DNA from: an uncultured Bacteroidales bacterium
Lineage (GTDB): Bacteria; Bacteroidota; Bacteroidia; Bacteroidales; P3
Reading direction: 5' to 3'
Length of the DNA: 64,000 bases
NCBI GenBank assembly: GCA_900318275.1
Contig: ONJY01000002.1
Coordinates: forward strand, 47,745 to 111,744
Each line of letters opens with the position of its first letter. Position 1 is the stretch's first letter. Below are positions 4,118 to 58,231 of this stretch, one piece after another. The position numbers and the translations under genes were made by a program. The notes under the pieces are model-generated. The model worked only from the letters and a program-made list of their open reading frames with translations, was not told the origin of the DNA and made no database searches.

Positions 4118-4951
4118 TTATTTTTCGCTGTGGAAGCGTCTCAGGCCGACGATGGGGTCGGCTACTATAGTGCTTACTTTCAGTCCGTTGCCCTCCATGA
4201 CGGCGCGCAGCGTCGGCTCGATGGCCTTGGCGTAGCTGCCGACCACCGACAGCGGGAAGTCGCCATTGCGCATCAGGGGCATGATGGCGTCGGTGAACCA
4301 CTCGTCCAGAGTCTTGGTGACGACACTGCGGCAATAGTCCTCCGCGATGTGCTTCACGGCAAAGGGGGCCAGCGAGGCTAGAAAGCGGTTGGGGTTGGGC
4401 TGATGGTAGACGGCATCCATCAGCTGGGCGTCGCTCATACGGTAAGTATCATGGAACATGAGTCTTAAGTCAGACGGCATGTGATGGGCGAGATAGTCGT
4501 TGAGTAGCACACGTCCCACATGGTTGGCCGAACCGCGGTCGCCGAGTATATAGCCTGTGCTGGTGGCTTGATGCCTAATTTGCAAGCCGTCGTAGAGGCA
4601 GGCGTTGCTGCCTGTGCCGAGGATGGCGACAAGGGCTGGTTGGTCGCCGGCGGTGGCGCGGCAGGCGGCGAGCATGTCGGTCTCGACATGTACAACGCTT
4701 GTTCCAAAGGCTTTAGCAAGCCATGTGGCCACCTTCTCGCGCTGGGCGGGAAGACCGCAGCCGGCACCGTAGAAGGTAATTGAGAATTGAGAATTGAGAA
4801 TTGAGAGTTGCTGACGCACAACATTGCAGGCGACGAGGAACTGCTCCTCGGTGGTGAAGTGTGGGTTGAGGCCTTCGGTAACTACCATGTTACCAGACTC
4901 TACCTCCATCCACGTGGTCTTGGTGCTCCCGCTGTCGGCTATGAGTATCAT
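4118..4951 (-). CDS. BadF/BadG-type ATPase, N-acetylglucosamine kinase-like
   Basis: A 277-residue cytoplasmic ASKHA-fold kinase. The phosphate-1 loop is [12 protein letters not shown] at the N-terminus. FYGAGCG begins the second strand block, and [13 protein letters not shown] with [14 protein letters not shown] forms the adenosine-binding half. Bacteroidota homologues are annotated as BadF/BadG/BcrA/BcrD ATPases or GlcNAc kinases, so amino-sugar salvage (for example from peptidoglycan) is the likely role, though the substrate is inferred. It overlaps pyrD by 4 bp and is the last gene of a long minus-strand operon. Residues [14 protein letters not shown] come from a heptanucleotide array inserted in frame just before the FYGAGC strand. 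Confidence 0.85.
4778..4810. repeat. Heptanucleotide array inside the sugar-kinase gene
   Basis: Four tandem copies of a 7-mer (AATTGAG on the plus strand, CTCAATT on the coding strand) followed by a degenerate unit. Read in the gene's frame it encodes SILNSQFSI without a stop. The same heptamer and peptide occur in thiN at 36531-36561. Confidence 0.9.
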
Positions 4952-5847
4952 ATTATGCCGATAATCTCATTGATGTCGTTGACGTTGTGACGGCGGCACC
5001 AGGCCTCCATGCCATCGATGATCTTGACGGTGACGGCGGGGTCGATGAAGTTGGCGGTGCCCACCTCGATGGCTGTGGCACCGGCCATGAGGAACTCGAT
5101 GGCGTCCTCGGCGGTGCAGATGCCACCCAGGCCTACGACGGGAATCTTCACGGCATGGGCAACTTGCCACACCATGCGCACGGCCACGGGCTTGACGGCG
5201 GGACCGCTGAGGCCGCCGGTGATGTTGGCCATGCAGGGACGGCGGCGCTCGATGTCGATAGCCATGCCCAGCAGTGTGTTGATGAGGCTCACGCTGTCGG
5301 CGCCGGCGCCTTCGACGGCCTTGGCTATCTCGGCGATGCTGGTGACGTTGGGCGAGAGCTTCACTATCAGCGTCTTGTTGTATACCTTGCGCACCGCGGA
5401 GACGACCTGTGCCGCCATGTCGGGGCTGGTGCCGAAGCCCATGCCTCCGCACTTGACGTTGGGGCAGCTGATGTTGAGCTCGATGGCGGGGATGCGGTCG
5501 AGGGCGTCGACCTGCGAGGCCACGTCGCAGTACTCCTCGATGGAAGAGCCGCTGACGTTGACTATGATATTGGTGTCGAGGTGTTTGATACGGGGGTATA
5601 CCTCTTTGCAGAACTTCTCCACACCGCCGTTCTGGAGGCCCACGGAGTTGAGCATACCCGAGGGGGTCTCCACCATGCGAGGATAGGGGTTGCCCTCGCG
5701 GTGGCTGCCTGTGGTGCCCTTGACGACGAAGCCGCCGAGACGGTTGAGGTCTATGAAGTCGGAGAACTCTTCGCCATAGCCGAAGGTGCCGCTAGCGGTC
5801 ATCACGGGGTTCTTCAGCTTGAGATTGTGTATGTTGACGTTTAGCAT
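4948..5847 (-). CDS. pyrD: Dihydroorotate dehydrogenase B, catalytic subunit
   Basis: Oxidises dihydroorotate to orotate in de novo pyrimidine synthesis. It is a class 1B FMN enzyme that works with the PyrK electron-transfer subunit encoded immediately upstream. The 299 residues begin [20 protein letters not shown]. Visible motifs are the FMN-binding [24 protein letters not shown] with the class 1B active-site cysteine region, IVKLSPNV, and the C-terminal phosphate loop [29 protein letters not shown] chose the ATG at 5847 because longer upstream extensions only translate pyrK out of frame. The start overlaps pyrK by 7 bp and the end overlaps the sugar-kinase start by 4 bp, implying translational coupling. 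Confidence 0.96.
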
Positions 5848-6617
5848 TGGTACCATTTTTTCATTGTGGAAATATCGAACACCGGGCCGTCCTTGCAGAC
5901 GCAACGGTGGCCCTGGTCGGTGTCGGTGACGCAGCAAAGGCATGCGCCGACGCCGCAAGCCATCATGTTCTCCAGGCTCACCTCGCAGCGCAGGCCACGC
6001 TCGGCGGCGCTACGTGCCACGGCCTTCATCATGGGCGTAGGACCGCAGGTGTAGATGATGTCGTAGCTGTCGGCGAAGGCGGGGTGCGTGGTGACGATGC
6101 CATGGTGACCGAGGCTGCCGTCGTCGGTGGCTATCAGGAGGTCGCCGTAGGGCTTGAAGTCGTCGCGCACGGGGATGAGGCCGGCGGTGCGTCCGCCGAG
6201 GAGTATGGTACAGCGTACGCCACTAGCCTTCAGCACCTTGCTGAGGTGCAGCAGAGGTGCCGTGCCGGCGCCGCCACCCACGAGGAGGGCATGGCTGCCG
6301 GCGGGGATGGCTGTGGTGAAGCCGTGGCCGAGGGGATAGACGACATTGAGGCTGTCGCCCACGGCGAGGGTGGCGAGACGGCGGGTGCCGTTGCCGACAA
6401 TCTGGATGAGCAGGCTCAGGGTGCCGGCCTCGGCGTCGACATCGTGCACCGAGATGGGGCGGCGCAGCATGACGCGAGGCTCGTCCTCGACGAGCACCTC
6501 GACAAACTGGCCGGGGGCTATGGGCTGCATCTTGCCGCCATGCTGCAGCACCAGACGGAAGTACTGGTCGCCGAGCTGCTGGCATGCAGCGATACTGAAG
6601 TTGTGTATTTCCTTCAT
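5841..6617 (-). CDS. pyrK: Dihydroorotate dehydrogenase B, electron-transfer subunit
   Basis: 258 residues; carries electrons from the PyrD FMN through FAD and a [2Fe-2S] cluster to NAD+. The FAD-binding signature RRPISVHD appears near residue 50, the NAD-binding loop [12 protein letters not shown] in the middle, [10 protein letters not shown] near the C-terminal third, and the ferredoxin-like cysteines in CGVGACLCC...[10 protein letters not shown]. Start set at the ATG at 6617, which overlaps the last base of the upstream lptF/G stop codon (TAATG); the longer open frame merely reads into lptF/G. pyrK and pyrD overlap by 7 bp, as expected for subunits of one complex. Confidence 0.95.
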
Positions 6618-11501: not shown

Positions 11502-11520
11502 TGCATCGTCTTATAAGAAG

Positions 11521-11595
11521 AGGGTAGTGGGTAGTCGTTAGTGGGTAGCGCACGCATCGAATGCTATCCACTACCCACTATCCACTACCCACTAA
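11521..11595. repeat. Self-complementary heptad array between M23 and PpiD-like genes
   Basis: Units of the type GTGGGTA/GTAGTGG in the first half and the complementary TACCCAC/TATCCAC in the second, all on a 7-bp period. The halves can pair across a spacer of about 20 bases, giving a long imperfect hairpin in the transcript between the two genes. Confidence 0.85.
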
Positions 11596-11607
11596 GCAAT
11601 CTGTCTC

Positions 11608-14690: not shown

Positions 14691-15635
14691 ATGACAGAAG
14701 GACTGGTCATAAGAACTACCGGCAACTGGTACAGGGTGTTGCCCGACAGCGGCGAGGCGCTGGAATGCCGCCTGCGCGGCAACTACCGCCTCCGCGGCAA
14801 CAAGCAGACCAACCCTGTGGCCGTGGGCGACCGCGTGCTCTTCGAGCTGCAGGACGACGGCACGGGGGTGATACACGACGTGCGCGACCGCCGCAACTAC
14901 ATCGTGCGACGCGCCACCAAGCTGTCTAAGCAGACCCACGTCATCGCCGCCAACATCGACCTGCTGTGCGTCGTGGCCACCCTCGGCCTGCCACGCACCT
15001 CCACAGGCTTCATCGACCGCCTGCTGGTGACCGCCGAGGCCTACCACATACCGGCATGCCTCGTCTTCAACAAGTGCGACCTGCTGGACGACCCCGACCT
15101 CCGCACCCTGCAGGACAAGGTGTCGGCAATCTACCGCGCCGCGGGCTACCCCGTACTGGAGGTGTCGGCCCTGCGCGGCGACGGCCTCGCGGAGCTGAAG
15201 CAGACCATCGCCGGCAAGACGGTGCTCTTCAGCGGCCACAGCGGCGTGGGCAAGAGCGCCCTGCTCAACGCACTCTGTCCCGACCTCGCCCTCAAGGTCG
15301 GCGCCATCTCCGATTGGAGCCTCAAAGGACGCCACACCACCACCTTCGCCGAAATACATCCAATCCAACTCATAACTCATAACTCCAAACTCCTAACTTA
15401 CTTAATCGACACCCCCGGCATCAAGGAGTTCGGCATGGTGGACTTCAACGAGCAGGAGCTCTCGCATTTCTTCCCCGAGATGCGCGCCGTGCTGCACGGA
15501 TGCCACTTCGCCAACTGCACCCACCGCCACGAACCCGGGTGCGCCGTCAAGGAGGCCGTGGAGCAAGGTCGCATCAGCGACGAGCGCTACCGCAACTACC
15601 TCAGCATCATAGAAGATACAATAAAACCACAATAA
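14691..15635 (+). CDS. rsgA: Ribosome small-subunit biogenesis GTPase RsgA
   Basis: A circularly permuted GTPase that checks late 30S maturation. 314 residues: an N-terminal OB domain (VLPDSGEALECRLRGNYRL), then G4 as FNKCD, G5 near VSALRG, G1 as GHSGVGKSALLNAL, the switch region GRHTTT, G3 as DTPG, and a C-terminal zinc knuckle CHFANCTHRHEPGC. Between GRHTTTFAEI and DTPG the usual short strand is replaced by HPIQLITHNSKLLTYLI, encoded by a heptad array. The GTPase motifs remain intact, so the protein is probably functional. marC follows 3 bp after the stop. Confidence 0.96.
   Translation: MTEGLVIRTTGNWYRVLPDSGEALECRLRGNYRLRGNKQTNPVAVGDRVLFELQDDGTGVIHDVRDRRNYIVRRATKLSKQTHVIAANIDLLCVVATLGLPRTSTGFIDRLLVTAEAYHIPACLVFNKCDLLDDPDLRTLQDKVSAIYRAAGYPVLEVSALRGDGLAELKQTIAGKTVLFSGHSGVGKSALLNALCPDLALKVGAISDWSLKGRHTTTFAEIHPIQLITHNSKLLTYLIDTPGIKEFGMVDFNEQELSHFFPEMRAVLHGCHFANCTHRHEPGCAVKEAVEQGRISDERYRNYLSIIEDTIKPQ
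15359..15403. repeat. Heptanucleotide array inside rsgA
   Basis: About five units of AACTCAT and its variants (AACTCCA, AACTCCT, AACTTAC), in frame and stop-free on the coding strand, encoding QLITHNSKLLTYL. It lies between the switch I region and the strand that leads into the G3 motif. Confidence 0.88.
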
Positions 15636-16941: not shown

Positions 16942-16977
16942 CAGCATGGCGATTTCAACAACAGCGGTTGAAAAAAA

Positions 16978-17009
16978 TTTGGCCATGTCAAAAAATGTTA
17001 GTAATTTTG
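16978..17009 (+). promoter_or_regulatory. Promoter for tRNA-Glu and rpsT
   Basis: TTTG at 16978-16981 and TAATTTTG at 17002-17009, spaced by 20 bases. This is an almost ideal Bacteroidota -33/-7 pair, 54 bases before the tRNA. Confidence 0.8.
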
Positions 17010-17062
17010 CACCCGCTTTTTGCGGAAAAAATACCCTTTCAGGGTAGCCGCCGAAGCACTGC

Positions 17063-18960: not shown

Positions 18961-19112
18961 TGGGACAGTAGGACGGTTGGGACAGTTGTTTTTTATACTA
19001 CCCCCCTCCTCTAAATACTATTTATATATAATATATAATATTATATATATAATTTCTCTTTTGACTTTTGCATACCATATTTTTTAACTGTCCCAGATGT
19101 CCCACTGTCCCA
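18961..19112. mobile_element. 152-bp element with 27-bp terminal inverted repeats (MITE-like)
   Basis: The left arm at 18961-18987 opens TGGGACAGT and ends GGGACAGTT. The right arm at 19086-19112 is its reverse complement with about four mismatches and ends ACTGTCCCA. The 98-bp centre is strongly AT-rich with alternating TA runs (about 19020-19050). There is no open frame inside and no clear target-site duplication. It could equally be a paired binding site for a regulator or replication protein; the mobile label is an inference from the shape. Confidence 0.45.
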
Positions 19113-19803: not shown

Positions 19804-20367
19804 ATGGCAACAACCACCGATATCAAGAACGGACTTTGCATCAATTTCAACAACGACATCTACACCATCGTAGAGTTCCTGCACGTGAAACCCGGCAAGG
19901 GCGCGGCCTTCGTGCGCACCAAGATGCGCAACGTGAAGACCGGCCGCATGCTGGAGAACACCTTCCCCAGCGGTGCCAAGATCGACATCGTGCGCGTGGA
20001 ACGCCGCCCTTACACCTACCTGTACAAGGAGGGCGACATGCACGTGTTCATGCACACGGAGACCTACGAGCAGATATACATCCCCGAACAGATCATCAAC
20101 GCCCCACAGTTCCTACGCGACGGCCAGTATGTGGAAATCACCGTCGACGCCGACACCGAGACCCCTCTGACCTGCGAGCTGCCCCCGTTCATCGAGACCG
20201 TGGTCACCTACACCGAACCCGGCTTCGCCGGCAACACCGCCACCAACGCCATGAAGGACGCCACCGTGGAGCCCGGCGTGCAGGTCCGCGTGCCGCTGTT
20301 CATCAAGGAAGGCGAGCGCATCAAGGTTGACACCCGCACCTGCGAGTATGCAGAACGCTTGAAATAA
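19804..20367 (+). CDS. efp: Elongation factor P
   Basis: Relieves ribosome stalling at polyproline. 187 residues with the three-domain KOW/OB/OB layout. The domain I loop reads VKPGKGAAFVRTKMRN, with the modifiable-residue position at the tip (Lys of PGKG). The C-terminus carries ERIKVDTRTCEYAERLK, the conserved EFP signature. Length is normal. It is followed by a heptad array that leads straight into the next gene's start codon. Confidence 0.97.
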   Translation: MATTTDIKNGLCINFNNDIYTIVEFLHVKPGKGAAFVRTKMRNVKTGRMLENTFPSGAKIDIVRVERRPYTYLYKEGDMHVFMHTETYEQIYIPEQIINAPQFLRDGQYVEITVDADTETPLTCELPPFIETVVTYTEPGFAGNTATNAMKDATVEPGVQVRVPLFIKEGERIKVDTRTCEYAERLK

Positions 20368-20399
20368 TTAAGAATTAAAAATTAAGAATTAAGAATTGA
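20365..20399. repeat. Heptad array joining efp to the cyclase-like gene
   Basis: AATTAAG-type units (one variant AATTAAA) on a 7-bp period. The array starts at the efp stop codon and its last, altered unit (AATTGAAG) contains the TTG start codon of the downstream gene. Confidence 0.9.
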
Positions 20400-21388
20400 A
20401 GCGTCTTGTCTTTATTGCAGCCTGCTTGCTGATGCTGGCAGGCTGCAAACATAAAACGACAGACAGTCAGTCGACGGCCCCGTCGACTGACTATACCCAG
20501 GTGGCTGTGCCGGCATTCTCCACCGACTCGGCCTATGCCTACGCCGCCGCACAGCTGGCTTTCGGATACCGCACACCAGGCTCCAAGGCCTGGGAGGAGT
20601 GCGCCCAGTATCTTGCCGGACAGATGGGGCGGTGGTGCGACACGGTGATGGTACAGCCATTCAAGGCCACCCTCTGGGACGGCAGCACGGTGCCCGGCCG
20701 CAACATCATAGCATCGTTGAATCCGCAGGCCGCCAAACGCATACTGCTGGCAGCCCACTGGGACAGCCGCCTATGGGCCGACCACGACCCCGACGAGGGC
20801 AACAAGCGCAAGCCGGTGCCCGGGGCTAACGACGGCGCCTCAGGAGTGGCCACACTGATGGAGATGGCACGTGTGATGAGCCAGATGCCGCCATCGGTGG
20901 GCGTGGACTTCATCTTCTTCGACGTAGAAGACCAAGGACAACCGGAATGGTCGGACAGATATGAAGACAACACATGGTGCAAGGGGTCGCAGCACTGGGC
21001 ACAGAACCGCCATGTGCCCGCCTACACGGCCGTATACGGCGTGCTGTTCGACATGGTAGGGACTGACGCTCCGCGTTATACAAAAGAGGAGGTTAGCCGA
21101 TACTATGCGCCGGGACTTACGGACAAGATGTGGAATGTGGCAGCGGCCTTGGGATACGGCAACATCTTTGTGCCACAGAACACCGACGCCATCCTTGACG
21201 ACCATCTATATGTGAACCAGATTGCCGGCATACCGATGGTGGACATAGTGCAAAACAGCGGCACCACAAGCTTCTTCCCCCACTGGCACACCACGACCGA
21301 CAACCTCGACAACCTGAACGCAGAGACCATGCACAAGGTTGCCACAGTCACCATGAAGACCATCTACGGCGACTATCCAAGCAAATGA
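20396..21388 (+). CDS. M28-family glutaminyl-peptide cyclotransferase-like lipoprotein
   Basis: 330 residues with lipobox LMLAGC, so it should be anchored in the periplasm or outer membrane. The M28 zinc set is visible: AAHWDSR, GANDGASG, FDVEDQG and FPHWHTTTD. These spacings fit type II glutaminyl cyclases of Bacteroidota, which convert N-terminal Gln exposed by signal peptidase to pyroglutamate; an aminopeptidase role is possible. The start codon is TTG at 20396, the last unit of a heptad repeat. No in-frame ATG precedes the signal peptide closely, and TTG-AAG-CGT gives the expected MKR N-terminus. Its stop overlaps the next gene by 4 bp. Confidence 0.85.
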   Translation: MKRLVFIAACLLMLAGCKHKTTDSQSTAPSTDYTQVAVPAFSTDSAYAYAAAQLAFGYRTPGSKAWEECAQYLAGQMGRWCDTVMVQPFKATLWDGSTVPGRNIIASLNPQAAKRILLAAHWDSRLWADHDPDEGNKRKPVPGANDGASGVATLMEMARVMSQMPPSVGVDFIFFDVEDQGQPEWSDRYEDNTWCKGSQHWAQNRHVPAYTAVYGVLFDMVGTDAPRYTKEEVSRYYAPGLTDKMWNVAAALGYGNIFVPQNTDAILDDHLYVNQIAGIPMVDIVQNSGTTSFFPHWHTTTDNLDNLNAETMHKVATVTMKTIYGDYPSK

Positions 21389-31856: not shown

Positions 31857-31893
31857 AATAACCTGTAACCTTTAACCGATAACCATCAACCGA
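31857..31893. repeat. Heptad array between LysM/M23 gene and trmD
   Basis: On the minus strand five units GGTTGAT, GGTTATC, GGTTAAA, GGTTACA, GGTTATT stand in tandem. The TGA stop of the LysM/M23 gene lies in the first unit, so the array begins exactly where that gene ends. Confidence 0.88.
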
Positions 31894-33115
31894 GCTTCAA
31901 CTTTTGGCCCACACGAAGCTTGCTGTTCTCGCTTATACCGTTGAGCTGGCAGAGGCGGCTCACAGTGGTGCCGTTGCGTTTGGCTATGCTGTAGAGCGTG
32001 TCGCCGCTGCGCACGGTGTAGGTGCCCTTGGCGCCCGTAGCCTGCTGTGCGGCGGAGCTCTTGCCGCTGCCCTCCTTGGCCGATGTGGTGCTCTTGGCCG
32101 AGGCCGACTTGGCCGCAGAGCCCGTGACCTTGAGCCGCTGCCCCACTCGGAGCGTAGAGGTGGGCTTGATGCCGTTGAGCTGGCAGAGACGCTTCACGGT
32201 GGTACCGTTGCGCCGTGCTATCTTCTCCAAAGTGTCGCCGCTGCGCACACGGTACCAGCCGCTCGACGACACATTGCCGCCACGCGAGCCCTTGCCGCCC
32301 TTCGACACCTTGCGGAACGAGTCGGACGTCAGCGTCAGCGTGTTGTTTAATAGGCCGTGCGTCTCGCAGTCAAGCACATTCTCGGGGTTGATGGCGTTGC
32401 CCATATAGCGTATCTCGAAGTGCAGATGGCTGCCGAACGAGCGCCCCGTGTTGCCGCAGAGGCCTATCAGGTCGCCGCTCTTCACGTGGTCGCCCACCGA
32501 CACCTCACGCTTCGACATGTGGGCATAATAGGTCTCCAAGCCATTGGCATGATGTATGATGACCAGGTTGCCGTAGCTGCGGTTGCGCTTCGAGATGCGC
32601 ACCACGCCGTCGAAAGCCGCGTAGATAGGCTCACCCGTAGGCTGAGCCAGGTCGAGGCCGTAGTGGAAACGGCGGCGGCGCGGGCCGAAGTGGCTCGTGG
32701 GGCGCGCCGTAACCGGCGTGGGCCACGAAAACTTGGGCAGCGTCAGCATGATGGGCTCGGTGATGGTCGACGGGTCGAGCTTGGGCAGGTGGATGGCCAT
32801 CGTGTCGAAAGCCTCAAGGATGATGTCCTCCTCGCTGTCGACGCCGTCGTCGTCGAGGGTGAAGGGCTGAATCACGCCCTCCTCGTCATCGTCGTCGGGG
32901 CGTACGATGAAAGGCGACTGATACATAATCTCTTCCGTCTCATCCTCCTCGCTCTGGTCAATCTTTATCCCCTTGAACTCCTCTTCCTCATAGATGACAT
33001 CGAGCTTGCCGACCCTTATTTCCGACTTCTTCTGCGGGTCGTCGTTCTGCGCCAACGTCACAGCCGGCAGAGCCAACAGCCCAAGTGTCAAAATGATACG
33101 TCCTATATTTTTCAT
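31886..33115 (-). CDS. Secreted M23 peptidase with two LysM domains
   Basis: A probable peptidoglycan endopeptidase of the periplasm. 409 residues: signal peptide ending AVTLAQ, an acidic linker ([20 protein letters not shown]), an M23 domain about 160-265 with HYGLD, YYAHMS and HLHFEI all intact, then LysM domains [18 protein letters not shown] and [18 protein letters not shown] separated by a Ser/Ala/Lys-rich linker. Unlike the M23 protein at 10581, all catalytic residues are present. A promoter lies just upstream. The stop codon is part of the heptad array before trmD. Confidence 0.93.
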
Positions 33116-33340: not shown

Positions 33341-33354
33341 CGGCGTGAAGAGTT

Positions 33355-33457
33355 CACAAAGGGGTGCGTTTATGATGCACGTCTACAGCGAAGTAGATGC
33401 ATAAACTGCTGAGAATACACCCTCAAAACTTGATCGGGGTAATGCCCGCGTAAGGAA
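33355..33457 (+). ncRNA. TPP (THI-box) riboswitch
   Basis: Contains the conserved thiamine-pyrophosphate aptamer blocks in order: GGGGTGC at 33361, CTGAGAATACACCC at about 33408, TTGATC and GGGGTAATGCCCGCGTAAGGAAA at 33430-33457. An extended P3 helix (GTTTATG...CATAAAC with an inner GTCTAC/GTAGAT stem) lies between the first two. The aptamer ends at the start codon of the TonB receptor, so ligand binding could block translation directly. Genes downstream are all thiamine-related, which supports the call. Confidence 0.95.
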
Positions 33458-33458
33458 A

Positions 33459-35714
33459 ATGAATATGGTAAAACACAATACTGATTGTGGCCGCTATCGC
33501 TTTTTTGGAGCCACCCGCATCAGCCGCCAGCAGATGATAGCCTGCTGCGCAGCTTTGGTTTTCAGTTTTAGTTTTCAGTTGACGGCCCACGCCCAGGACA
33601 CCACCGCCCGCAAACTCGACGAGGTGATGATCCAGGACGTTCGCGTGAGCAACAAGACGCCGTTGACCACGAGCACCATGAATCGCGAACAACTGCAGGA
33701 GAACAAGTTCTCCCCCGCCCTGCCCGATGTTGTGGAGTTTGAGCCCTCGGTGGTGGTCACCGCCGAGAACGGCATTGTCGGAGCCTCGTCGTTCCGCATC
33801 CGCGGTGTCGACGCCTCGCGTATCAACGTGAACATCAACGGACTGCCGCTCAACGATGCCGAGAGCCAGTCAGTCTATTGGATTAACATACCGAACCTCG
33901 GTGGCATGGCGCAGAGCATACAGATACAGCGCGGTGTTGGTGCCTCGAACGGCGGTTCGGCCGCTTTCGGCGGAGCGGTGAACATACAGACCTTCAACGC
34001 TGCCGACAAGCCCTATGGACAAGCCGACCTCTCGCTGGGATCGTGGAACACGCGCCAGTATGGCATCCTGGCCGGAACAGGTCTCACCAAGCATGGTTTC
34101 TCGTTCGACGTGGCCTACAACGGCCTCACGAGCGACGGCTTCGTGCGCGGAGGATTCGCCGACCAGCAGAGCGTCTTCTTGTCGGCAAGCCACTACACGG
34201 ACGTCTCCCTCCTCAAGGCAGTGATGATATTTGGCAAGCAGAGCACCGGCATCACATGGGACGGTGCCGACAGCGCCGACCTTAACCGTGACCCCCACTA
34301 TAATGGTACAGGTGCATATTATGATGAGTTCGGCAATGTGCACTACTACGAGAACGAGAGCGACAACTATCAGCAGCAGCACTACCAGCTCTATTATTCG
34401 CGCCTGTTGGGCGAGAACTGGTCGCTCAACGCCGCCTTCGACTACACGCACGGCTATGGATGGGACGAGCGCTACAAGGATGACAAGAAACCGTCTAAAT
34501 ACAACATACCCTCCGGTCTCGGCATAGGCATCGGCGACTTTATCCTCTACAAGGATATGGGCAACAGTGCCTACACGGGCAACCTGTCGCTGCGTTATGG
34601 CAAAGAGGCTCTGTCTGTTGTGCTGGGAGGCAGTTTCCAGTACCACGACAGCAGACACGTGGGCTCAGTCATCTGGGCACAGAACGACACCAACGAAATT
34701 ATATCGCGCGATCATCCGTTCAACGACTGGTACACCAACACCGGTAAGAAAAGCGATGCTGTGGTCTTCGCCAAGCTGAACTATGACTTCTCCGACGACC
34801 TCAACCTCTATGCCGACCTTCAGGTGCGCACTCTCAAATACTCGCTGCGCGGTTCCGACGACGATTACGACAATCTAGACTACGACACCAACTATCTGTT
34901 CTTCAACCCCAAGGTGGGTGTCAACTATCGCATCTCCGAAAACCAGCGCCTCTATTTGGTGGCAGGCATGTCAAACCGTGAGCCTACACGTGCCGACATC
35001 AAGGATGCCATGCACATGGGCGACACCATCAAGCCAGAGACGATGGTTGACATAGAGTTTGGCTATCAGATACGTCAAGCCAAGTATCACATTGAGGCCA
35101 ACCTCTATGCCATGCTGTACAAAGACCAGCTCGTGGCCTCGGGCCTTGTGTCGAACAGTGGCTATGCTTTGATGGAGAATGTTGACAAGAGTTACCGCAT
35201 GGGCATTGAGCTTGTGGGCGGCTACAATGTGGCTCGCTGGTTCAGCCTCGACGGCAACCTGACACTCTCGATGAACAAGATTGTCGACTATACATATAAC
35301 GCCTACGACGCTTCCTACAACCAGCATCCAGTCTCCTTCGGCACTACCGACATCGCCCTGTCACCCTCTATCATAGGTGCTGCCATCGCCACATTCCGCC
35401 CCATCGACAACGCCAAGTTACAGATTATTGGCAAATACGTCGGTGAACAGTACGGCGACAACACAGGCCGCAAGGATATGAAGGTGGACGATTATTTCCT
35501 GCTCAACATGCGCGCGTCGTATACCTGGCACCTCAAAGGCACCAACGAGATTGAAGCACAGGTGTTGGTCAACAATGTGTTCAACCACAAATACCGCCTC
35601 AGCGCCTGGGTCAGCTCCACCTATGACCCAGTCAACGGGAGCTTCGAATGCTATCGCGGCTGGTTCCAGCAGCCCGGCATCAACTTCATGGGCCGCTTGA
35701 TATATAGGTTCTAA
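33459..35714 (+). CDS. TonB-dependent outer-membrane receptor, probably for thiamine
   Basis: 751 residues. The N-terminal segment carries a signal peptide (MIACCAALVFSFSFQLTAHAQ) after about 25 extra residues, so translation may begin at a later Met than the 33459 ATG. The plug domain follows (VVTAENGIVGASSFRIRGVDASRINVNINGLPLNDAESQSVYWINIPNL), then a 22-strand barrel ending in a terminal aromatic RLIYRF. The TPP riboswitch and the pnuT and thiN genes downstream point to thiamine or a derivative as the ligand; that is inferred from context. Its stop overlaps pnuT by one base. Confidence 0.93.
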   Translation: MNMVKHNTDCGRYRFFGATRISRQQMIACCAALVFSFSFQLTAHAQDTTARKLDEVMIQDVRVSNKTPLTTSTMNREQLQENKFSPALPDVVEFEPSVVVTAENGIVGASSFRIRGVDASRINVNINGLPLNDAESQSVYWINIPNLGGMAQSIQIQRGVGASNGGSAAFGGAVNIQTFNAADKPYGQADLSLGSWNTRQYGILAGTGLTKHGFSFDVAYNGLTSDGFVRGGFADQQSVFLSASHYTDVSLLKAVMIFGKQSTGITWDGADSADLNRDPHYNGTGAYYDEFGNVHYYENESDNYQQQHYQLYYSRLLGENWSLNAAFDYTHGYGWDERYKDDKKPSKYNIPSGLGIGIGDFILYKDMGNSAYTGNLSLRYGKEALSVVLGGSFQYHDSRHVGSVIWAQNDTNEIISRDHPFNDWYTNTGKKSDAVVFAKLNYDFSDDLNLYADLQVRTLKYSLRGSDDDYDNLDYDTNYLFFNPKVGVNYRISENQRLYLVAGMSNREPTRADIKDAMHMGDTIKPETMVDIEFGYQIRQAKYHIEANLYAMLYKDQLVASGLVSNSGYALMENVDKSYRMGIELVGGYNVARWFSLDGNLTLSMNKIVDYTYNAYDASYNQHPVSFGTTDIALSPSIIGAAIATFRPIDNAKLQIIGKYVGEQYGDNTGRKDMKVDDYFLLNMRASYTWHLKGTNEIEAQVLVNNVFNHKYRLSAWVSSTYDPVNGSFECYRGWFQQPGINFMGRLIYRF

Positions 35715-36274
35715 TGAATGTGTTGGACATCGTCGGCGCCGCCATCGGCTTGGTCTTTGTGTTCAGCGAATACAAGGCAAGCCGGTGGCTGTGGCCGTCG
35801 AGTCTGCTGATGGCGGCATTCTACGCGGTCATCAACTTCAGCATAGGCTGGTACGCCAACATGGGCATCTGCGTGTACAACTTCGCCATATCCGTATATG
35901 GTCTGCTGGTGTGGCGCGGCATTGTCCAAAGCAAAGAGAAGAAAGAGCGACCGATAGCCAGTTGTCCCGGGCGTCTATGGCCGTGGCTCATAGCGGCCAC
36001 AGTAGTGCTTACGCTACTCTTCCGCTGGCTGCTGGGCATGCTGGGCGAGAGCAACATGCCATGGCTCGACGGCTTGTCGGCAGCGCTCGGCATCGTTGGC
36101 ATGTGGATGCTCTCGCAGAAATACTGGCAGCAGTGGATATTCTGGCTCGTCAGCGAGCCGATACTGGTATACATCTACCTCAGCACCGGCTACACCGCCT
36201 CGGCTTTGATGTATGCCGTCTACGAGGTGTTCTGCATCATGGGAATAATAAGATGGAAGAGACTAAGCATATAG
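35714..36274 (+). CDS. pnuT: PnuC-family thiamine transporter (PnuT)
   Basis: A 186-residue inner-membrane facilitator with about six to seven hydrophobic segments, a PnuC-type topology. Conserved aromatic blocks WLWPSSLLMAAFYAVINFSIGWYANMG and QKYWQQWIFWLVSEPILVYIYL are visible. In Bacteroidota this variant behind a TPP riboswitch and TonB receptor is named PnuT and imports thiamine. ATG overlaps the receptor stop (TAATG) and the gene overlaps thiN by 22 bp. Confidence 0.92.
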   Translation: MNVLDIVGAAIGLVFVFSEYKASRWLWPSSLLMAAFYAVINFSIGWYANMGICVYNFAISVYGLLVWRGIVQSKEKKERPIASCPGRLWPWLIAATVVLTLLFRWLLGMLGESNMPWLDGLSAALGIVGMWMLSQKYWQQWIFWLVSEPILVYIYLSTGYTASALMYAVYEVFCIMGIIRWKRLSI

Positions 36275-36909
36275 TGATACTGGCGGCGGGCGACTTCCCC
36301 ACGCACCCTGTGCCCTTGCAGGCTCTCCGCGAGGCGGACTTTGTCGTGTGCTGCGACAGCGCCTACGGGACGGTCAAAGATGGCAGGTTAGGGATAGGGG
36401 ACTATGTGGTGGTCGGCGACGGCGATTCCCTGTCAGAGGCGGACAAAGCCGCTCTCGGCAACCGCTGGATTGAGGTTGGCGAACAGGACTACAACGACCT
36501 GCACAAGGCCATGGAGTATGCCACCAGTAAATTCTCAATTCTCAATTCTCAGTTCTCAATTGTTGGTGCCACCGGCCGCCGCGAGGACCACACCATAGGC
36601 AACATCAGCTACTTGATAACCTTCGCCGACGAGCACCCTGGAGCCGACATCGAGATGCTGACGGATTACGGACGCTTCGTGGCGACGACCGGCAGACGCA
36701 CCTTTGCCAGCTTCCCGCGCCAGCAGGTGAGCATCTTCACAATGACGCCCGACATACCTATCAATGCCATCGGCCTCAAGTGGCCTCTCGACGGCTTCCA
36801 TGCCAGGCTCTGGTGGCAGGCCACATTAAACGAAGCCCTCGGAGACAACTTCACGCTTGACTCCGAGGGTAGGATTATTGTCTTTCAGACTTACGACCCG
36901 AAGCAATAA
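36253..36909 (+). CDS. thiN: Thiamine pyrophosphokinase
   Basis: Turns imported thiamine into thiamine pyrophosphate, trapping it in the cell and producing the riboswitch ligand. 218 residues from the ATG at 36253. Motifs: VILAAGDFPTHP, CCDSAYGTVKD, VVGDGDSLSE, DYNDLHKAMEYA, VGATGRREDHTIGNI (active site), and the C-terminal beta domain (GLKWPLDGF). Residues [12 protein letters not shown] come from a heptad array in the loop before GATGRREDH, where relatives have a short variable turn. Catalytic residues are untouched. Confidence 0.93.
   Translation: MEETKHIVILAAGDFPTHPVPLQALREADFVVCCDSAYGTVKDGRLGIGDYVVVGDGDSLSEADKAALGNRWIEVGEQDYNDLHKAMEYATSKFSILNSQFSIVGATGRREDHTIGNISYLITFADEHPGADIEMLTDYGRFVATTGRRTFASFPRQQVSIFTMTPDIPINAIGLKWPLDGFHARLWWQATLNEALGDNFTLDSEGRIIVFQTYDPKQ
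36531..36561. repeat. Heptanucleotide array inside thiN
   Basis: Four tandem ATTCTCA units (the fourth GTTCTCA), in frame and stop-free, encoding [10 protein letters not shown]. Same heptamer and peptide as in the sugar-kinase gene at 4778-4810, in the same sense relative to transcription. Confidence 0.92.
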
Positions 36910-38455: not shown

Positions 38456-38479
38456 TCTCGTTTCTTCCGAAATCGGGTG

Positions 38480-38510
38480 CAAAAGTACAACCTTTTTTTC
38501 AACTGGCAAA
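38480..38510 (-). promoter_or_regulatory. Promoter for the tRNA-Ala pair and probably purD
   Basis: Minus-strand TACTTTTG (38480-38487) with TTTG (38507-38510) 19 bases upstream. Confidence 0.78.
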
Positions 38511-38611
38511 ATTTTTTTTTCTATTACCTGTCAATGTATCACGCTACACGTTGCAGTACAACATATTGCGTTTTGCAAAAAATTGTCGCCTGAACGGAAA
38601 GACACAAAAAC

Positions 38612-45256: not shown

Positions 45257-45390
45257 AGTGTAAGATTTTTTTATATGGTAACACAAAAACAGCACTTTTA
45301 TTGTGCCCTTGCACAAATTTATTTTCCTTCCCTCCCCTTCGGACCCGGTACGGAGTCGGCACCGGAAGCGCCTTTTTCGGCACCCATGTC

Positions 45391-45419
45391 TTGCGGTTCG
45401 AAAAAAATGTGTATCTTTG
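45391..45419 (+). promoter_or_regulatory. Promoter for lacZ and the polymerase genes
   Basis: TTG at 45391-45393 and TATCTTTG at 45412-45419, spaced by 18 bases. The ATG of lacZ is only 9 bases after the -7 element, implying an almost leaderless mRNA. Confidence 0.72.
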
Positions 45420-45428
45420 CATCCGGAT

Positions 45429-48400
45429 ATGAGCAAGCACATTTTCGCCATTAGCATAATAATGACGCTTTTCTGCGTCGTGGGCACGCAGGCGCAACCC
45501 CATTGGGACAACCTTGAGGTGTACCGCCTGAACAAGGTGCAGCCGCACGACCATGTGGTGCCCGAAGGGCCTTGGCGCCTGAGCCTCAACGGCCAATGGG
45601 CTTTCCGCATCTTTGACACACCGCAGCAGGCCACCCTCACTCCCGCACGCTGGGACAGCATCGGCGTGCCGGGCAACATAGAGCTACAAGGCTACGGCAT
45701 ACCGGTCTATGTCAATATGCGCAACGAGTTCGTCGGCGGCGACCGGCAGGGAGCCAACGGCTCAAAAAGCGACCCGCCGCGGGCACCGCGCAGCTACAAC
45801 CCGACGGGGGTGTACATGCGCCACTTCACGCTGCCCGGCCACTGGCAGGGACGGCGCACGATAGCCAAGATCGGCGCTGCAGGCGGCGGCGTGTACCTCT
45901 ACATCAACGGCCGCGAGGTGGGCTACAGCCAGGACTCGAAGACCCCGGCCGAGTGGGACATCACGCGATACCTCGCAGCAGGACGCAACACGATGGCCGT
46001 CAAAGTGGTGCGATGGAGCGACGGCAGCTACCTGGAATGCCAGGACATGTGGCGCATGAGTGGCATCACGCGCGACGTGGAGCTGTACAGCGTGCCGTGG
46101 ACCTACATCACTGACCTGAAAATCACCGCCGACGTCGACACCGCCGACTGGCGCACGGGGCGCCTCGACGTGATAGTGGACCTCAGCCGCGAGGTGCAGG
46201 GAGGGAGCGTGGAGTGGAGAGTGGAGAGTGGAGAACCGGGGGAATGTTTGGACAAGGGTCGCAAGGTGCTGGAGCCGCGCGACTGGTACACCAGCTTCTC
46301 GGCCACGGTACACGACGTGCAGCCGTGGTGCGACTCGACACCTGTGCTCTACAAGCTGCAGGTGAGCCTCCACGACGCCGGTGGGCGCGAGACAGAGCGC
46401 CTCGTCAAGCGTATAGGCTTCCGCCATATCGACATCCGCGACGGGCAGCTGCGCGTCAACGGCAAGGCCGTGGAGATACGCGGCGTAAATCGTCACGAGC
46501 ACAGCGTCGCCGGGGGCCACTACATAACGCCCAACGAGATGCGGCAGGACGTTGCCCTGATGAAAGAGCTGGGCATCAACGCCGTGCGCACAAGCCACTA
46601 CCCCGACGACGAGTTGTGGTACGACCTCTGCGACTCGGCAGGCATCTACGTGTGGGACGAGGCCAACGTCGAGAGTCACGCCCAGGGCTACGGCGAAGGC
46701 TCGCTGGCACGCAAGAAGGAATGGCTCAACCCAATACTGGACCGCATATACAACATGTTCAAGCGTGACCGCAACCACCCGTCGGTCATTGTGTGGAGCC
46801 TCGGCAACGAGTGCGGCAACGGCTACTGCTTCGAGGAGGCCTACCGCTTCCTCAAAGGCAAGGACAACACGCGGCCGGTGGTCTACGAGCGCGCCGAGAC
46901 GGCATGGAACACCGACATCGTGTGCACCATGTACCCGTCGGCGGCCGACATCGGTGCCTATGCCCGCAACGCCAGGAACAAACGCCCCTACATCATGGCC
47001 GAATACTGCCACGCCATGGGCAACGGCATGGGCGGACTGAAGGACTACTGGGACACCATAGACCGCTACCCGCTGCTTCAGGGCGGCTTCATCTGGGACT
47101 GGGCCGACCAGGCTTTCTTGATGGAAAACGGCTGGTGGGCGGCCGGCGGCGACCTCGGCGAGTTGCCGGGAGTGAAAGACGACGACGCCTTCTGCGCCAA
47201 CGGCATACTTGCCGCCGACCGCAGCCCGCATCCGGCGGCGGCCGAAGTGAAGGCCGTCTACACACGCGGCAGCGACAACGTCGTGGTGCCGCTGCGCGAC
47301 GGCACGGAGGCCCACAGCACAGGGTTGCACAACGGCGAGGTGCGCGTGCACCGCGGCCGCGAGGCAGTATCGCTGAAGGGCAGCGACTTCGAGGTGCACA
47401 TAGACCTGCACGACGGCAGCGTGACCAGCTACCGCTACCGCGGACACGAGCTGCTGGCGGCACCGCTGCGCTGCAATTTCTGGCGCCCACCGACGGACAA
47501 CGACCTCGTCGACGTAGCCGGAGCACGTGCCTGGCAGGGGCTCGACAGGCTGACGGCCGAGGTGCTCTCGGTGAGCACCGCCCAGGGCGAGGTGAACATG
47601 CTGATGCGCCTGAAGAGCGACGATGGGGCGGCACTGCGTGTGAAGCAGATAGTGGAGGCCGACAACGAGGGACGCCTGCAGCTGAGCTACATGGTGGTGC
47701 CCGGGGGCCAGTACCGAACCCTGCCCAAGGTAGGCGTGCAGCTCGGCCTCGACACCGGCTACACGGCATGCCTCTTCCGCGGCAACCTGTACGAGACCTA
47801 CCCCGACCGCCGTGCCGCACAGCGCAACGGCACATGGTACAAGGCCATGGAGGAGCTGGCGCTGCCGCAGTATGTGGTGCCGCAAGAGCAGGGCAACCGC
47901 GAGGCGGTGTGGGTGCGCTTCACCGGCGACGGCACCGACGAGCGGCCGGCGCTGACCCTGATGAGCCCCGACACCGTGCTCAACTTCAGCGTGCGCCGCT
48001 GGAGCGACAGCACGCTCACCGCCGCACACCGTTGGCGTGGCTTGACACCCGAGGATATGTATACGGTGAGCGTCGACCACCGCCAGACAGGCCTCGGCAC
48101 GGCCACCTGCGGACCCGGCGTGGCGGAACGCCACCAGCTGAGCGGCGACAGCACCTACTACTACCGCTTCGTGGCTGTGCCTGGCGACGTGGAGCGCAGC
48201 TGCCCATTCGCGACGCACCCCGACATGGGTGGCAACATAGGGGCGGAACAGATGCAGACGCTCAAGATAAAAGACATAGCCTCGAACGTGAAGCCATCGG
48301 AGCCCTACACGGAAGGCTTCCCACGGCAGATGGCCGACGGCCGACGTGCCGTGCCTGGCGACTGGTGCCACGGGTGGGCAGGCTTCCAAGGCGAGGACAC

Positions 48401-48746
48401 AGTGGAGCTGACGCTCACCCTGGAAGGCTACGAGACCCTCGGCAGCATAGCCGTGGGTGCATGCCACAGCCCGGGCGACTGGGTAGTGAAGCCGCAGGAC
48501 GTGCAGGTGCAGTGGAGCATCGACGGCAGTCGCTGGAGCCCATGGCAGAGCATGGAGCTGGCCAACCCGCCGGACGACCTGTACGCCGACAGCCGCCGTC
48601 TGCGCTACACGCTGACGCCAAACAAAGCGCGGAGCGTGCACTTCGTGAGGGTGCGCTTCACCGGCCGCGGGCAACTGCCGATATGGCACCAGTATGCAGG
48701 GCAGCCGGCATGGCTGATGATTGACGAGATAGACCTGACAAAATAG
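45429..48746 (+). CDS. Secreted GH2 beta-galactosidase with C-terminal discoidin-like domain
   Basis: 1105 residues. Signal peptide MSKHIFAISIIMTLFCVVGTQAQ; then GH2 sugar-binding, immunoglobulin-like and TIM-barrel domains. The acid/base glutamate is in WSLGNECGNG and the nucleophile in IMAEYCHAMGNGMGGLKDYWD. The bgal small-chain domain follows (LRCNFWRPPTDNDL). The last about 150 residues resemble an F5/8-type carbohydrate-binding domain (VQVQWSIDGSRWSPWQ...VHFVRVRFTGRG). A heptad array puts SVEWRVESGE into the immunoglobulin-like region. A periplasmic role in glycan degradation is likely. The Y-family polymerase gene begins 6 bp after the stop. Confidence 0.93.
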   Translation: MSKHIFAISIIMTLFCVVGTQAQPHWDNLEVYRLNKVQPHDHVVPEGPWRLSLNGQWAFRIFDTPQQATLTPARWDSIGVPGNIELQGYGIPVYVNMRNEFVGGDRQGANGSKSDPPRAPRSYNPTGVYMRHFTLPGHWQGRRTIAKIGAAGGGVYLYINGREVGYSQDSKTPAEWDITRYLAAGRNTMAVKVVRWSDGSYLECQDMWRMSGITRDVELYSVPWTYITDLKITADVDTADWRTGRLDVIVDLSREVQGGSVEWRVESGEPGECLDKGRKVLEPRDWYTSFSATVHDVQPWCDSTPVLYKLQVSLHDAGGRETERLVKRIGFRHIDIRDGQLRVNGKAVEIRGVNRHEHSVAGGHYITPNEMRQDVALMKELGINAVRTSHYPDDELWYDLCDSAGIYVWDEANVESHAQGYGEGSLARKKEWLNPILDRIYNMFKRDRNHPSVIVWSLGNECGNGYCFEEAYRFLKGKDNTRPVVYERAETAWNTDIVCTMYPSAADIGAYARNARNKRPYIMAEYCHAMGNGMGGLKDYWDTIDRYPLLQGGFIWDWADQAFLMENGWWAAGGDLGELPGVKDDDAFCANGILAADRSPHPAAAEVKAVYTRGSDNVVVPLRDGTEAHSTGLHNGEVRVHRGREAVSLKGSDFEVHIDLHDGSVTSYRYRGHELLAAPLRCNFWRPPTDNDLVDVAGARAWQGLDRLTAEVLSVSTAQGEVNMLMRLKSDDGAALRVKQIVEADNEGRLQLSYMVVPGGQYRTLPKVGVQLGLDTGYTACLFRGNLYETYPDRRAAQRNGTWYKAMEELALPQYVVPQEQGNREAVWVRFTGDGTDERPALTLMSPDTVLNFSVRRWSDSTLTAAHRWRGLTPEDMYTVSVDHRQTGLGTATCGPGVAERHQLSGDSTYYYRFVAVPGDVERSCPFATHPDMGGNIGAEQMQTLKIKDIASNVKPSEPYTEGFPRQMADGRRAVPGDWCHGWAGFQGEDTVELTLTLEGYETLGSIAVGACHSPGDWVVKPQDVQVQWSIDGSRWSPWQSMELANPPDDLYADSRRLRYTLTPNKARSVHFVRVRFTGRGQLPIWHQYAGQPAWLMIDEIDLTK
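46207..46235. repeat. Heptanucleotide array inside the GH2 gene
   Basis: Tandem GAGTGGA units (about 3.5 copies), in frame and stop-free, encoding VEWRVESGE in a loop between strands of the immunoglobulin-like domain. Confidence 0.85.
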
Positions 48747-55032: not shown

Positions 55033-55078
55033 TTCAATTTATGGTTATTAATCTACATTCACTAATCCCCATTCACCT
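55033..55078. repeat. 14-bp (2 x 7) repeat at the ThrE/TSCPD junction
   Basis: On the minus strand GTGAATGGGGATTA is followed by GTGAATGTAGATTA, then more degenerate units. The ThrE stop TAG is formed across the first junction, and the array runs to within 3 bases of the TSCPD start. Confidence 0.8.
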
Positions 55079-56300: not shown

Positions 56301-56316
56301 CATTCTGTCTTTTGCA

Positions 56317-57034: not shown

Positions 57035-57066
57035 ACCTCAATATTCAACTTTCGTATTTCACAATT
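57033..57066. repeat. Degenerate heptad array at the end of the YdeI-like gene
   Basis: On the minus strand ATTGTGA, AATACGA, AAGTTGA, ATATTGA, GGTATGA stand on a 7-bp period with GA conserved at the end of each unit. The first unit contains the YdeI stop, the last the ATG of the downstream gene. Confidence 0.72.
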
Positions 57067-57394
57067 GGCAACGCATTCTTCCTGCCTCCGTCATCAAACC
57101 CCGCTGCTCCAGTTCCCTGCACCGCTCCCGGTTTCGCTCCGTCCAGTGGCTATTCTTCCTTCGCGGAGAGAGACGCTGTGCCAGCCGTCCGTCGGGCAGC
57201 CGCTTGCAGGTGGAATCTATCCATCCGAAGCAGAGGGCCTCCTCAACGACCTCCACATACGGCAACGCATCGGCCATCGGTAGTTTGCCCCTATATGTAG
57301 CCACCCATACCTCGCGCTCCTTCTGGTGATGCCTCATCAGCCATCGCCGCAACGCCTTGCGGTCATCCGTCTCCAAGAGGGTAGTTATCTCCAT
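57059..57394 (-). pseudogene. YdeI/OmpD-associated family protein, C-terminally truncated
   Basis: 111 residues match the N-terminal half of YdeI-like proteins (RRWLMRHHQKEREVWVATYRG, EALCFGWIDSTCKRL, AQRLSPRRKNSHWTERNRERCRELEQRGLMTEAG). Family members usually continue for another about 70-80 residues; here the frame ends RMRCQL and TGA, exactly where a heptad array begins. It may be a decayed gene or a shortened but working domain. It starts one base before the EFR1 gene's stop. Confidence 0.7.
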
Positions 57395-58231
57395 CTATAT
57401 GCTGTGTGTCGTTTCTGCTACATAGAACTCCGGCCGCTTCGGGACAGCGAAGGTGCGCTCAATCATGGCTACGTGGGAGAGATACTCGGAGTCGGTGAAG
57501 GCGATGGCGCTGGCAGGACAGCTACGGCGGCAGGCTTGGCATTTGATGCAGACGCCGTCGAAGGTCGGCATACCGTCTTCCGCTCCGATGCTCCCCATAG
57601 GGCACACCTCCATACACTCGCCGCAGCGCGTGCACAAGGCGCTGTTGCACGAGGGCTTGGCCTTGAGGAATCCCGCGGGGGCATTGTTGGTCTTCAGGGG
57701 GGTATAGTATCTCTCGGGATGCGCTTCGCCGGGAACCGATACAGTTAATAGTTTAGAATCATGAGTTAAGAGTTTCTCTGCAACTTGAGTGGCGAAACGG
57801 TCGAGGGCTGCGAGGTCCTCACCGTTAGGGCGTCCGGCACCAAGGGTGTCGCTGAAAGCGTGGCGCGTCACCATAGCGGCGGCGCCGACGGGCTTCATAC
57901 CGCCCTCCTCCATCAAGCCCACCAGCTCGGCCAGCGCGTTGTCGTAGGCGCGGTTGCCGAAGGTGACGAGCGCAACAGCCGGATTGCCGTCGGCACGTAA
58001 GGCTCGCCGCACATAGTCGAGCGTCTTGTTGGGTATGCGCCCAGCATAGACGGGCGTCGCCCACACGACTACATCTCCCGCCTCCAACTGCGGCAGCTCC
58101 TCGCGCTCACGCGGCAAGGTGTATGAATGGTATTCCACCTCCGCACCCAGCAGCGCACCCAGCCGGTCGCCCAAGTGCTGCGCCACCTGCAACGTGCCTC
58201 CCGTAGGACTGAAATAGTAGACCTTGAGCAT
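57395..58231 (-). CDS. EFR1-family flavodoxin/ferredoxin fusion
   Basis: 278 residues: an N-terminal flavodoxin-like domain (YYFSPTGGTLQVAQ FMN loop, WATPVYAGRIPNKTLDYV, VTFGNRAYDNALAEL) and a C-terminal 2[4Fe-4S] ferredoxin (CTRCGECMEVCPMGSI and CIKCQACRRSCPASAI). It shuttles electrons between flavin and ferredoxin partners in anaerobes; the partner is unknown. Residues LLTHDSKLLTV linking the two domains come from a heptad array like that in rsgA. Start is ATG at 58231. Confidence 0.93.
   Translation of the reverse strand: MLKVYYFSPTGGTLQVAQHLGDRLGALLGAEVEYHSYTLPREREELPQLEAGDVVVWATPVYAGRIPNKTLDYVRRALRADGNPAVALVTFGNRAYDNALAELVGLMEEGGMKPVGAAAMVTRHAFSDTLGAGRPNGEDLAALDRFATQVAEKLLTHDSKLLTVSVPGEAHPERYYTPLKTNNAPAGFLKAKPSCNSALCTRCGECMEVCPMGSIGAEDGMPTFDGVCIKCQACRRSCPASAIAFTDSEYLSHVAMIERTFAVPKRPEFYVAETTHSI
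57741..57778. repeat. Heptanucleotide array inside the EFR1 gene
   Basis: On the coding strand AACTCTT, AACTCAT, GATTCTA, AACTATT, AACTGTA stand in tandem, in frame and stop-free. They encode KLLTHDSKLLTV in the flavodoxin-ferredoxin linker, nearly the same phrase as in RsgA. Confidence 0.82.

Follow-up and report, generated by a model that had tools for sequence, protein, structure and literature searches.

In-frame palindromic DNA in genes has previously been reported for Rickettsia, Wolbachia and some bacteria bearing repetitive extragenic palindromes (REPs). The Wolbachia palindromic elements (WPE) are coding palindromes like those of Rickettsia (RPE), and the short tandemly repeated repetitive sequences (STRR) of cyanobacteria are heptanucleotide repeats. 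In the Nostoc tRNA-Leu intron, studied by Costa in 2002, one site reportedly carries different degenerate heptad classes in different strains, which was explained by slippage and homogenisation. A heptad excess in bacteria is already published (Mrazek 2007 as described in PMC4679880; PMC4692102); as these sources present them, the known heptanucleotide repeats, including GGGNATC of Xanthomonas and Nostoc, are mainly intergenic and built around one main unit, and TAACTGA repeats occur in Beggiatoaceae, Cyanobacteria and five Bacteroidetes (PMC4679880). RPEs are described as small palindromes that lie in-frame in conserved genes and, within one genus, occupy many genes unrelated to each other (PMC2229807). 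REPs, by the description in PMC3733652, measure 20-40 bp and carry GTAG or CGTC at one end, the GTAG class being tied to genes of REP-associated tyrosine transposases (RAYTs); many of those located in open reading frames (ORFs) code for 20-30 residues, often in DNA-repair genes and also in tRNA synthetase genes, their TAG supplies stops to flanking ORFs, and CGTC repeats are reported in the Bacteroidetes phylum. Another kind of palindromic coding repeat is described in PMC2996958. Here we analyse a window, the whole stretch of 64,000 nucleotides at positions 47,745 to 111,744 of contig ONJY01000002.1 (assembly GCA_900318275.1) of an uncultured Bacteroidales bacterium, for its tandem heptad arrays and for a dispersed palindrome of about 77 bp whose arms are themselves tandem heptads. 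Heptad excess and in-frame palindromes are each known; among the top-ranked papers of a literature search, no title or start of an abstract described heptads or coding palindromes of this kind in Bacteroidetes, or the combination of heptad arms, in-frame spread and in-place rewriting in a Bacteroidales genus.

We consider it probable that a recurrent process of slippage and fold-back makes the heptad arrays and that one palindrome family in addition spreads through the genus, with no function of the repeats being needed. The window is part of one contig (C20) of a genome of 2.28 Mb in 56 contigs, 88.64% complete (G000), whose closest enolase matches among named genomes are uncultured rumen Bacteroidales; G022 is its nearest relative (SurA-like protein 100% identical, compared with 86% for G018), and G046 is distant. 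Repeats were counted in 329,186 bases, made up of the window and, from each of contigs C1-C19 and C21, the initial 20 kb or the entire contig, array content playing no part in the choice; the remainder of C20 was added later (376,930 bases). The sample contained 32 period-7 runs at threshold 11 and 21 at threshold 14; Markov shuffles of order 1, 3 and 5 contained 0.0-0.4. The period-7 excess is beyond chance and is of the kind by which simple heptanucleotide repeats of the long simple sequence repeat (LSSR) or STRR type are recognised (32 versus at most 0.4 in 329 kb). Period 11 gave 24 and 16 runs at the same thresholds (shuffles 0.0-0.4), periods 14, 21 and 22 gave 24, 15 and 17 at threshold 11, and the remaining periods between 4 and 30 gave 0-7. 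The original prediction had proposed one recurrent process acting at many loci, to be sought as a period-7 excess over shuffled sequence in a whole-genome scan; in the 329 kb sample the excess is present and, together with arrays at orthologous places, supports that proposal. A period-7 bias is also general in Bacteroidota, with 33 runs in 1.24 Mb of named loci against 0, 12, 3, 1 and 1 at periods 5, 8, 10, 11 and 13. Such a bias suits an account in which the arrays are ordinary microsatellites whose local seeds grow by slippage favouring 7 bp, drift and contract, the palindromes being fold-back products and nothing being mobile.

The palindromes bear directly on that account. Among 110 period-7 arrays from 1.36 Mb of seven genomes, 24 had an inverted partner within 90 nt, compared with 8 of 550 random segments. 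One hairpin of this design, with heptad arms GGGTAGT and ACTACCC, lies in the window at 11519..11596 between an M23 peptidase gene and a gene for a SurA-like peptidyl-prolyl isomerase (predicted -44.1 kcal/mol, z -9.0). It is an intergenic copy of a dispersed palindromic family, matching at least 23 distinct places in the genome G011. The 20 places fetched align with the window copy over both arms and a related loop of about 16 nt (mean column identity 76%), defining a palindrome of about 77 bp in which each arm comprises about four heptads and which, like RPE and WPE, occurs in many copies of shared sequence. The strand of each copy was assigned by eye from its loop; on that strand 18 of the 20 G011 copies have a frame that stays open across the element and its two flanks (L262 and L265 are closed), a 21st G011 place, L138:10538, is open as well, and the intergenic window copy is closed. 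Open copies have a left arm without TAG in the one open frame, and the conceptual peptide of the palindrome resembles VGSGECVVDSSRGQVLPTTHYPLPT. This peptide gave 119 matches in 20 of 118 genomes of the genus; 90 of these lack stops and lie in frames of 178-1946 residues, and some of the other 29 represent the opposite strand of the same palindrome. In-frame passage through conserved genes, a further property of coding palindromes, is thus seen both in the G011 copies and in the peptide matches.

Fourteen of the 18 open G011 frames were scanned (L250, L261, L266 and L267 were left out), and 13 matched a known gene family, L258 matching none. The host families comprise amidohydrolase, UvrB/C motif, UvrD helicase, NRDD, class I tRNA synthetases, ValRS, DapF, Ham1, RarA, NadB, RadA and UvrA. 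Nine inserts were fetched from other genomes, of which L279, L280, L282 and L285 did not fit the motif; hosts were assigned for five frames, namely RadA and MurC/Mpl (G068), RecG (G072 and G018) and amidohydrolase (G115), with G068 RadA alone passing the cut-off in an NCBIfam scan of these fragment queries. Seven of the 18 G011 inserts had any orthologue in the compared DNA of other genomes, and for five genes (ValRS, NrdD, DapF, NadB and RarA) the window's genome holds an orthologue without the insert, again as in coding palindromes. The flanks at these five sites were too diverged for reading a target-site duplication, the mark of a miniature inverted-repeat transposable element (MITE). In RecG, the insert occupies the same position in G072 and G018. 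The RadA genes of G011 and G068 hold it too, and that of G022 has a diverged, decayed copy in which the right arm forms a plain heptad array. Since twenty G011 palindromes share the loop as well as the arms, and orthologues without the insert were found, we regard the purely microsatellite account as unlikely overall; for the plain arrays it may hold.

Two further observations concern G011. A RarA-type gene (L249) holds two tandem copies of the palindrome's left half, possibly an insertion of the element into itself. Another in-frame repeat (L263, L264 and L191:4014-4079), coding for LTPGPSPNGEG-like peptides, occurs in RadA- and UvrA-type genes; its L191 copy is palindromic.

Compared by description (PMC2229807), the family shares with RPEs its small palindromic form and its in-frame position in conserved genes, many of them unrelated, within one genus; it differs in size (about 77 bp against 105-146 bp), in its arms of tandem heptads that grade into plain arrays, and in its occurrence in a rumen Bacteroidales genus. 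With the GTAG/CGTC REPs as presented in PMC3733652 it shares a location within ORFs and hosts among DNA-repair and tRNA synthetase genes, while its length of about 77 bp, the recurrence of GTAG inside the heptads and the lack of an adjacent RAYT gene set it apart from the GTAG REP/RAYT type both in size and tag and in the flanking of a Y1 gene. A Y1 transposase (RAYT) was considered as mobiliser and rejected for want of adjacency at the three G011 loci and one G022 locus inspected. Of 10 genomes tested, 7 have Y1 transposases; within about 2 kb to each side of the three G011 Y1 genes there was no heptad palindrome, and one plain ACTACCC array lay 1.7 kb from one of these genes. The G022 Y1 gene is accompanied by its own GACCCCTACGGGGTC repeats. 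At L120:14500-15750 of G022, in a region corresponding to about 31.2 kb of the window, a Y1 gene stands beside CCCCTACGGGG palindromes. Carriage by phages or plasmids was likewise rejected: the palindrome peptide matched none of 50,697 phage or 72,556 plasmid records (E 0.01), and a loop-arm pattern had no exact match in viral_contigs, this being a narrow pattern found in 8 of 285 collected loci. Nor did the peptide match any of 247 genomes drawn across the order, the window's genome included.

Arrays at orthologous places were compared between species. Anchored orthologous places in another genome were obtained for 38 of 97 array sites, giving 95 comparisons: 46 had a period-7 run score of at least 9, 14 were weak and 35 had no array, and the control periods 5, 6, 8, 9, 10 and 11 reached that score in 0, 1, 2, 0, 0 and 0 of the 95. 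Among 32 pairs with arrays on both sides (duplicates roughly removed, a few places still being counted twice) the consensus unit was changed in 23 and unchanged in 9, six of the latter being pairs of G000 and G022. A unit can change across all copies jointly: after efp, AATTAAG in G000 corresponds to AGTTAAG in G022. Over 43 pairs, in which rsgA occupies many rows and some pairs are entered in both directions, lag-7 identity within arrays was 0.92 (gene-internal) and 0.91 (other), and between species 0.76 and 0.80, the within-array values being favoured because both members of a pair were picked for periodicity. Lengths differed by 0, 3 or 6 nt in the 21 gene-internal pairs, as open frames demand, and by -39 to +39 nt in the 22 others. 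Length and sequence thus differ among relatives, contrary to the outcome named beforehand as incompatible with the original prediction, that relatives would share every array at identical length and place. The near relatives are metagenome assemblies or fragmented drafts, and one might therefore suspect an assembly artefact of metagenome-assembled genomes; we give this a negligible probability, as arrays stand at matching places in many separate assemblies, their frames remain open, and almost none arise in Markov shuffles or at most other periods.

The most densely sampled place is a loop of RsgA. In the window, AACTCAT-type heptads at 15367..15398 (plus strand) lie within rsgA (14691-15635) and encode residues 226-236 in the loop preceding IDTPG, where the protein has an insertion compared with the two solved structures that match best (1u0l is shorter by 7 residues, 1t9h by 8). 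An rsgA match was found in 104 of 119 genomes of the genus. From these, 50 were taken (the 30 best matches and 20 others, 8 of which were chosen for a match split in the gene), and 47 were readable through the loop, G044, G076 and G093 being left out. The loop held heptads of many units in 21 species (score at least 9), a score of 7-8 in 2, period 8 in 2 (G116 and G117) and an aperiodic sequence in 22. Its length was 24-27 nt in 8 species, all without an array, 48 nt in 21 (13 with heptads) and between 36 and 177 nt in the others; the step from 27 to 48 nt equals three heptads and that from 27 to 51 nt three octads, and each step may represent a separate in-frame gain. Gains of three units of 7 or 8 also accord with the microsatellite account. 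Flanks 86-90% identical surround wholly different loops in G104/G007, G115/G055 and G072/G116; in the first two pairs (90% and 89%) one loop is a plain array and the other a long inverted pair. The rsgA loop of G068 is the dispersed palindromic element in shortened form.

To account for the observed excess, the concerted change of units, the conservation of sites, the in-frame copies and the insert-free orthologues, we infer particular polymerase events, a tolerance of inserts and a route of copying for the palindrome. Replication slippage and fold-back template switching would recur in units that in this lineage are 7 bp long (11 and, less often, 8), slippage giving direct arrays and fold-back giving pairs of inverted arrays, that is, hairpins. 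Direct and inverted arrays at one site fit these two events, and one arm of the 11519 hairpin is 14 bp, or two units, shorter in G022 than in G000, which fits unit-wise slippage and would be expected of microsatellites as well. The units of an array would be homogenised, so that its place and reading frame are kept while its spelling is replaced between species. The spread of one palindrome with a shared loop requires something beyond slippage and fold-back: one palindrome of about 77 bp with heptad arms would additionally move through genomes of the genus and, being stop-free in one sense-strand frame in most copies, would be tolerated in genes, where it adds about 25 residues. Right arms that remained once the left arm had decayed may account for some gene-internal arrays, and selection would chiefly filter the surviving arrays for frame, stops and tolerant loops. 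Of the mechanisms originally offered, slippage thus finds support in the two-unit difference at 11519, and a mobile microrepeat does so for the palindrome with heptad arms only. The link from palindrome to plain array is demonstrated in the AGTGGGT family alone.

Several points weigh against this reading. The palindrome peptide had no match at the cut-off in the window's own genome. The Y1 transposase, the sole candidate gene sought, is not adjacent to the palindromes at three G011 loci and one G022 locus and had no match in the window's genome (88.64% complete), and no polymerase, transposase or intermediate was identified. For AATTGAG-type arrays such as those of the window no palindrome parent was seen, and a palindrome origin is a suggestion in their case. 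Replacement within genes at preserved length could instead be a repeated independent gain of three units, as from 27 to 48 nt in rsgA. G000 and the distant G046 share an identical array at L159:14958, from which the nearer G022 differs, a pattern that could mean exchange between species. All comparisons are between different species with one genome each, and no event was caught in progress. With these points in mind we put forward, tentatively, a stronger form of the proposal, in which a translated, self-spreading heptad palindrome, stop-free in only one frame of one strand, may have moved through core genes of this rumen genus (those of RadA, RecG, UvrA, tRNA synthetases and others) and, with its kin, may seed arrays that are continually rewritten where they stand. 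If so, in-frame palindromes in essential genes would extend to gut bacteria and be linked to tandem heptads; more than 100 related genomes would display the element as an insert, as a homogenised array, as a decayed arm or not at all, a series in which the mutational origin of bacterial heptads could be tested; and some loops of core proteins in these bacteria would be written by repeat DNA.

The units of the arrays are related rather than several unrelated heptamers, as had first been thought. The window unit AATTCTC (36530) is AATTGAG (4778) on the opposite strand, and AATTAAG (20366) is one base off. Taking the better strand and rotation, ARTKRRN describes 67 of the 110 units (for shuffled units the mean is 21 and the maximum 32) and RRTKNNN describes 104 (mean 68, maximum 80). 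A universal heptad grammar was nevertheless rejected: ARTKRRN is weakly enriched in distant Bacteroidota (8 of 33; shuffles average 3.1, and 4 of 500 reach 8) and the four-unit pattern is present in 137 of 247 genomes of the phylum, and a reversed-pattern control was equal or higher in many of these genomes and nearly as high in the window's genome, so that the grammar is a loose one that depends on lineage. None of the 110 consensus units is TAACTGA. A genome-wide heptad dialect was weak (33 of 2000 label permutations reached the observed mean distance and 1 of 2000 the proportion of near-identical pairs; an initial four-genome test had given p 0.03 and 0.0065) and was absent outside genes (1401 and 650 of 2000, respectively). 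By contrast, the 11-mers are strongly genome-specific, with 11.3% of pairs at most one base apart within a genome against 0.6% between genomes (0 of 2000 permutations for both measures). A dedicated repeat-writing enzyme, reverse-transcriptase or telomerase-like, that copies short units into the chromosome would produce a shared unit grammar, a fixed unit length, whole-array unit replacement and genome-specific 11-mers. We think it very improbable, because units vary within a single genome, the reversed-pattern control exceeds the pattern in several other genera, and no candidate gene is in hand, only the Y1 transposase having been searched for.

By the calls of an in-house gene finder, 47 of the 110 arrays lie inside genes, 16 at gene borders and 47 between genes; the thiamin pyrophosphokinase array described below was filed as non-coding despite a gene shown by Pfam. 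The arrays are therefore not mainly intergenic. With the heptanucleotide repeats described in PMC4679880 and PMC4692102 they share period 7, few copies per array and many loci, those repeats being strain-specific; they differ in their many units and in the share that lies inside genes. The Nostoc tRNA-Leu heptads reportedly occupy a single intron loop, whereas the arrays here are genome-wide and enter protein genes. In the 47 gene-internal arrays the ARTK-like strand is antisense in 27 and sense in 20. These arrays are stop-free in the sense frame, as predicted, which follows from the gene itself being open. Selection for a function as binding sites, transcription terminators or RNA hairpins is an improbable explanation of the arrays as a whole: some form very stable predicted hairpins, yet almost half are gene-internal, units are often replaced, many arrays are missing in relatives, and two plain arrays that were folded had no predicted structure. 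In favour of such a function, the period-11 arrays are genome-specific and nearly all intergenic (101 of 112, with 8 inside genes), 34 of them between divergent genes against 22 expected by length. These arrays often form hairpin arms (window 60272-60360; L130-L133, L172-L175 and others) and make up a second repeat system of about the heptads' frequency; many units in G009 are TGGTCCG-based, and ACTGAAGAACT is an example from G022. The window hairpin at 60272..60360, intergenic by the in-house gene calls, has 11-bp tandem repeats in both arms (TTCAACGATAC and TATCGTTAAAA) and matches the heptad hairpins in design at period 11.

Seven of the eleven window sites initially proposed as period-7 arrays bear out as such. 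The sites at 4778, 11521, 15359, 20365, 31857, 36531 and 46207 have period-7 run scores of 23, 9, 16, 19, 10, 19 and 16, compared with a background of 3000 random 70-bp window pieces in which 1.1% score at least 8 and 6.4% at least 5. The site at 30008 repeats every 21 bp (scores of 13 and also 10 at period 21) and has no 7-bp sub-period (score 3 at period 7). Those at 55033, 57033 and 57741 score 3, 4 and 5, which is background, and have no Tandem Repeats Finder row; at period 14 the site 55033 scores 8, and at period 21 the site 57741 scores 9, the random-piece background having been computed for period 7 only. Rfam yielded no known RNA at the arrays.

The array at 4778..4810 (minus strand; AATTGAG, 4.7 copies) lies within a BadF/BadG-like ATPase gene (4118-4951, Pfam match below cut-off); its counterparts are AATTGAG in G022, a weak AGTTGAA/AGTGGGA run in G046 and AGAGTTG/AGAGTGG in G018. 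That at 20366..20397 (plus strand; AATTAAG, 4.6 copies) extends from the stop codon of the elongation factor P gene (19804-20367) to the start of an M28 peptidase ORF (20396-21388), and the same place holds AGTTAAG in G022 and an AAAGTGG-type hairpin in G011. Degenerate TAACCNN heptads at 31859..31893 (minus strand) occupy the 3' end of an M23/LysM gene (31886-33115); they are kept in G022 and missing from G018, G009 and G011, and G056 has no periodic array there. The array at 36530..36561 (plus strand; AATTCTC, 4.6 copies) lies within the thiamin pyrophosphokinase ORF (35785-36909), where the unit is AATTCTC in G000 and G018, AATTCAC in G009 and ACTTCAC in G022. Finally, GAGTGGA (3.3 copies, 46212..46234, plus strand) lies within a beta-galactosidase gene (45303-48746) and codes for EWRVESGE.

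Other features of the window were noted in passing. A thiamin pyrophosphate (TPP) riboswitch at 33350-33473 precedes a TonB receptor gene, a gene of the nicotinamide mononucleotide (NMN) transporter type and thiamin pyrophosphokinase, so that 33350-36909 is probably a thiamine uptake cluster. A sequence of about 50 bp occurs at 16971-17020 and 38468-38519 on opposite strands, near tRNA genes at 17063 and 38381, with copies in 6 of 6 relatives in one search and, among the matches listed in another, in at least five of them. A quasi-palindromic stretch (TGGGACAGT ... ACTGTCCC) at 18961-19112 has further copies in G022 and G046 among the matches listed.

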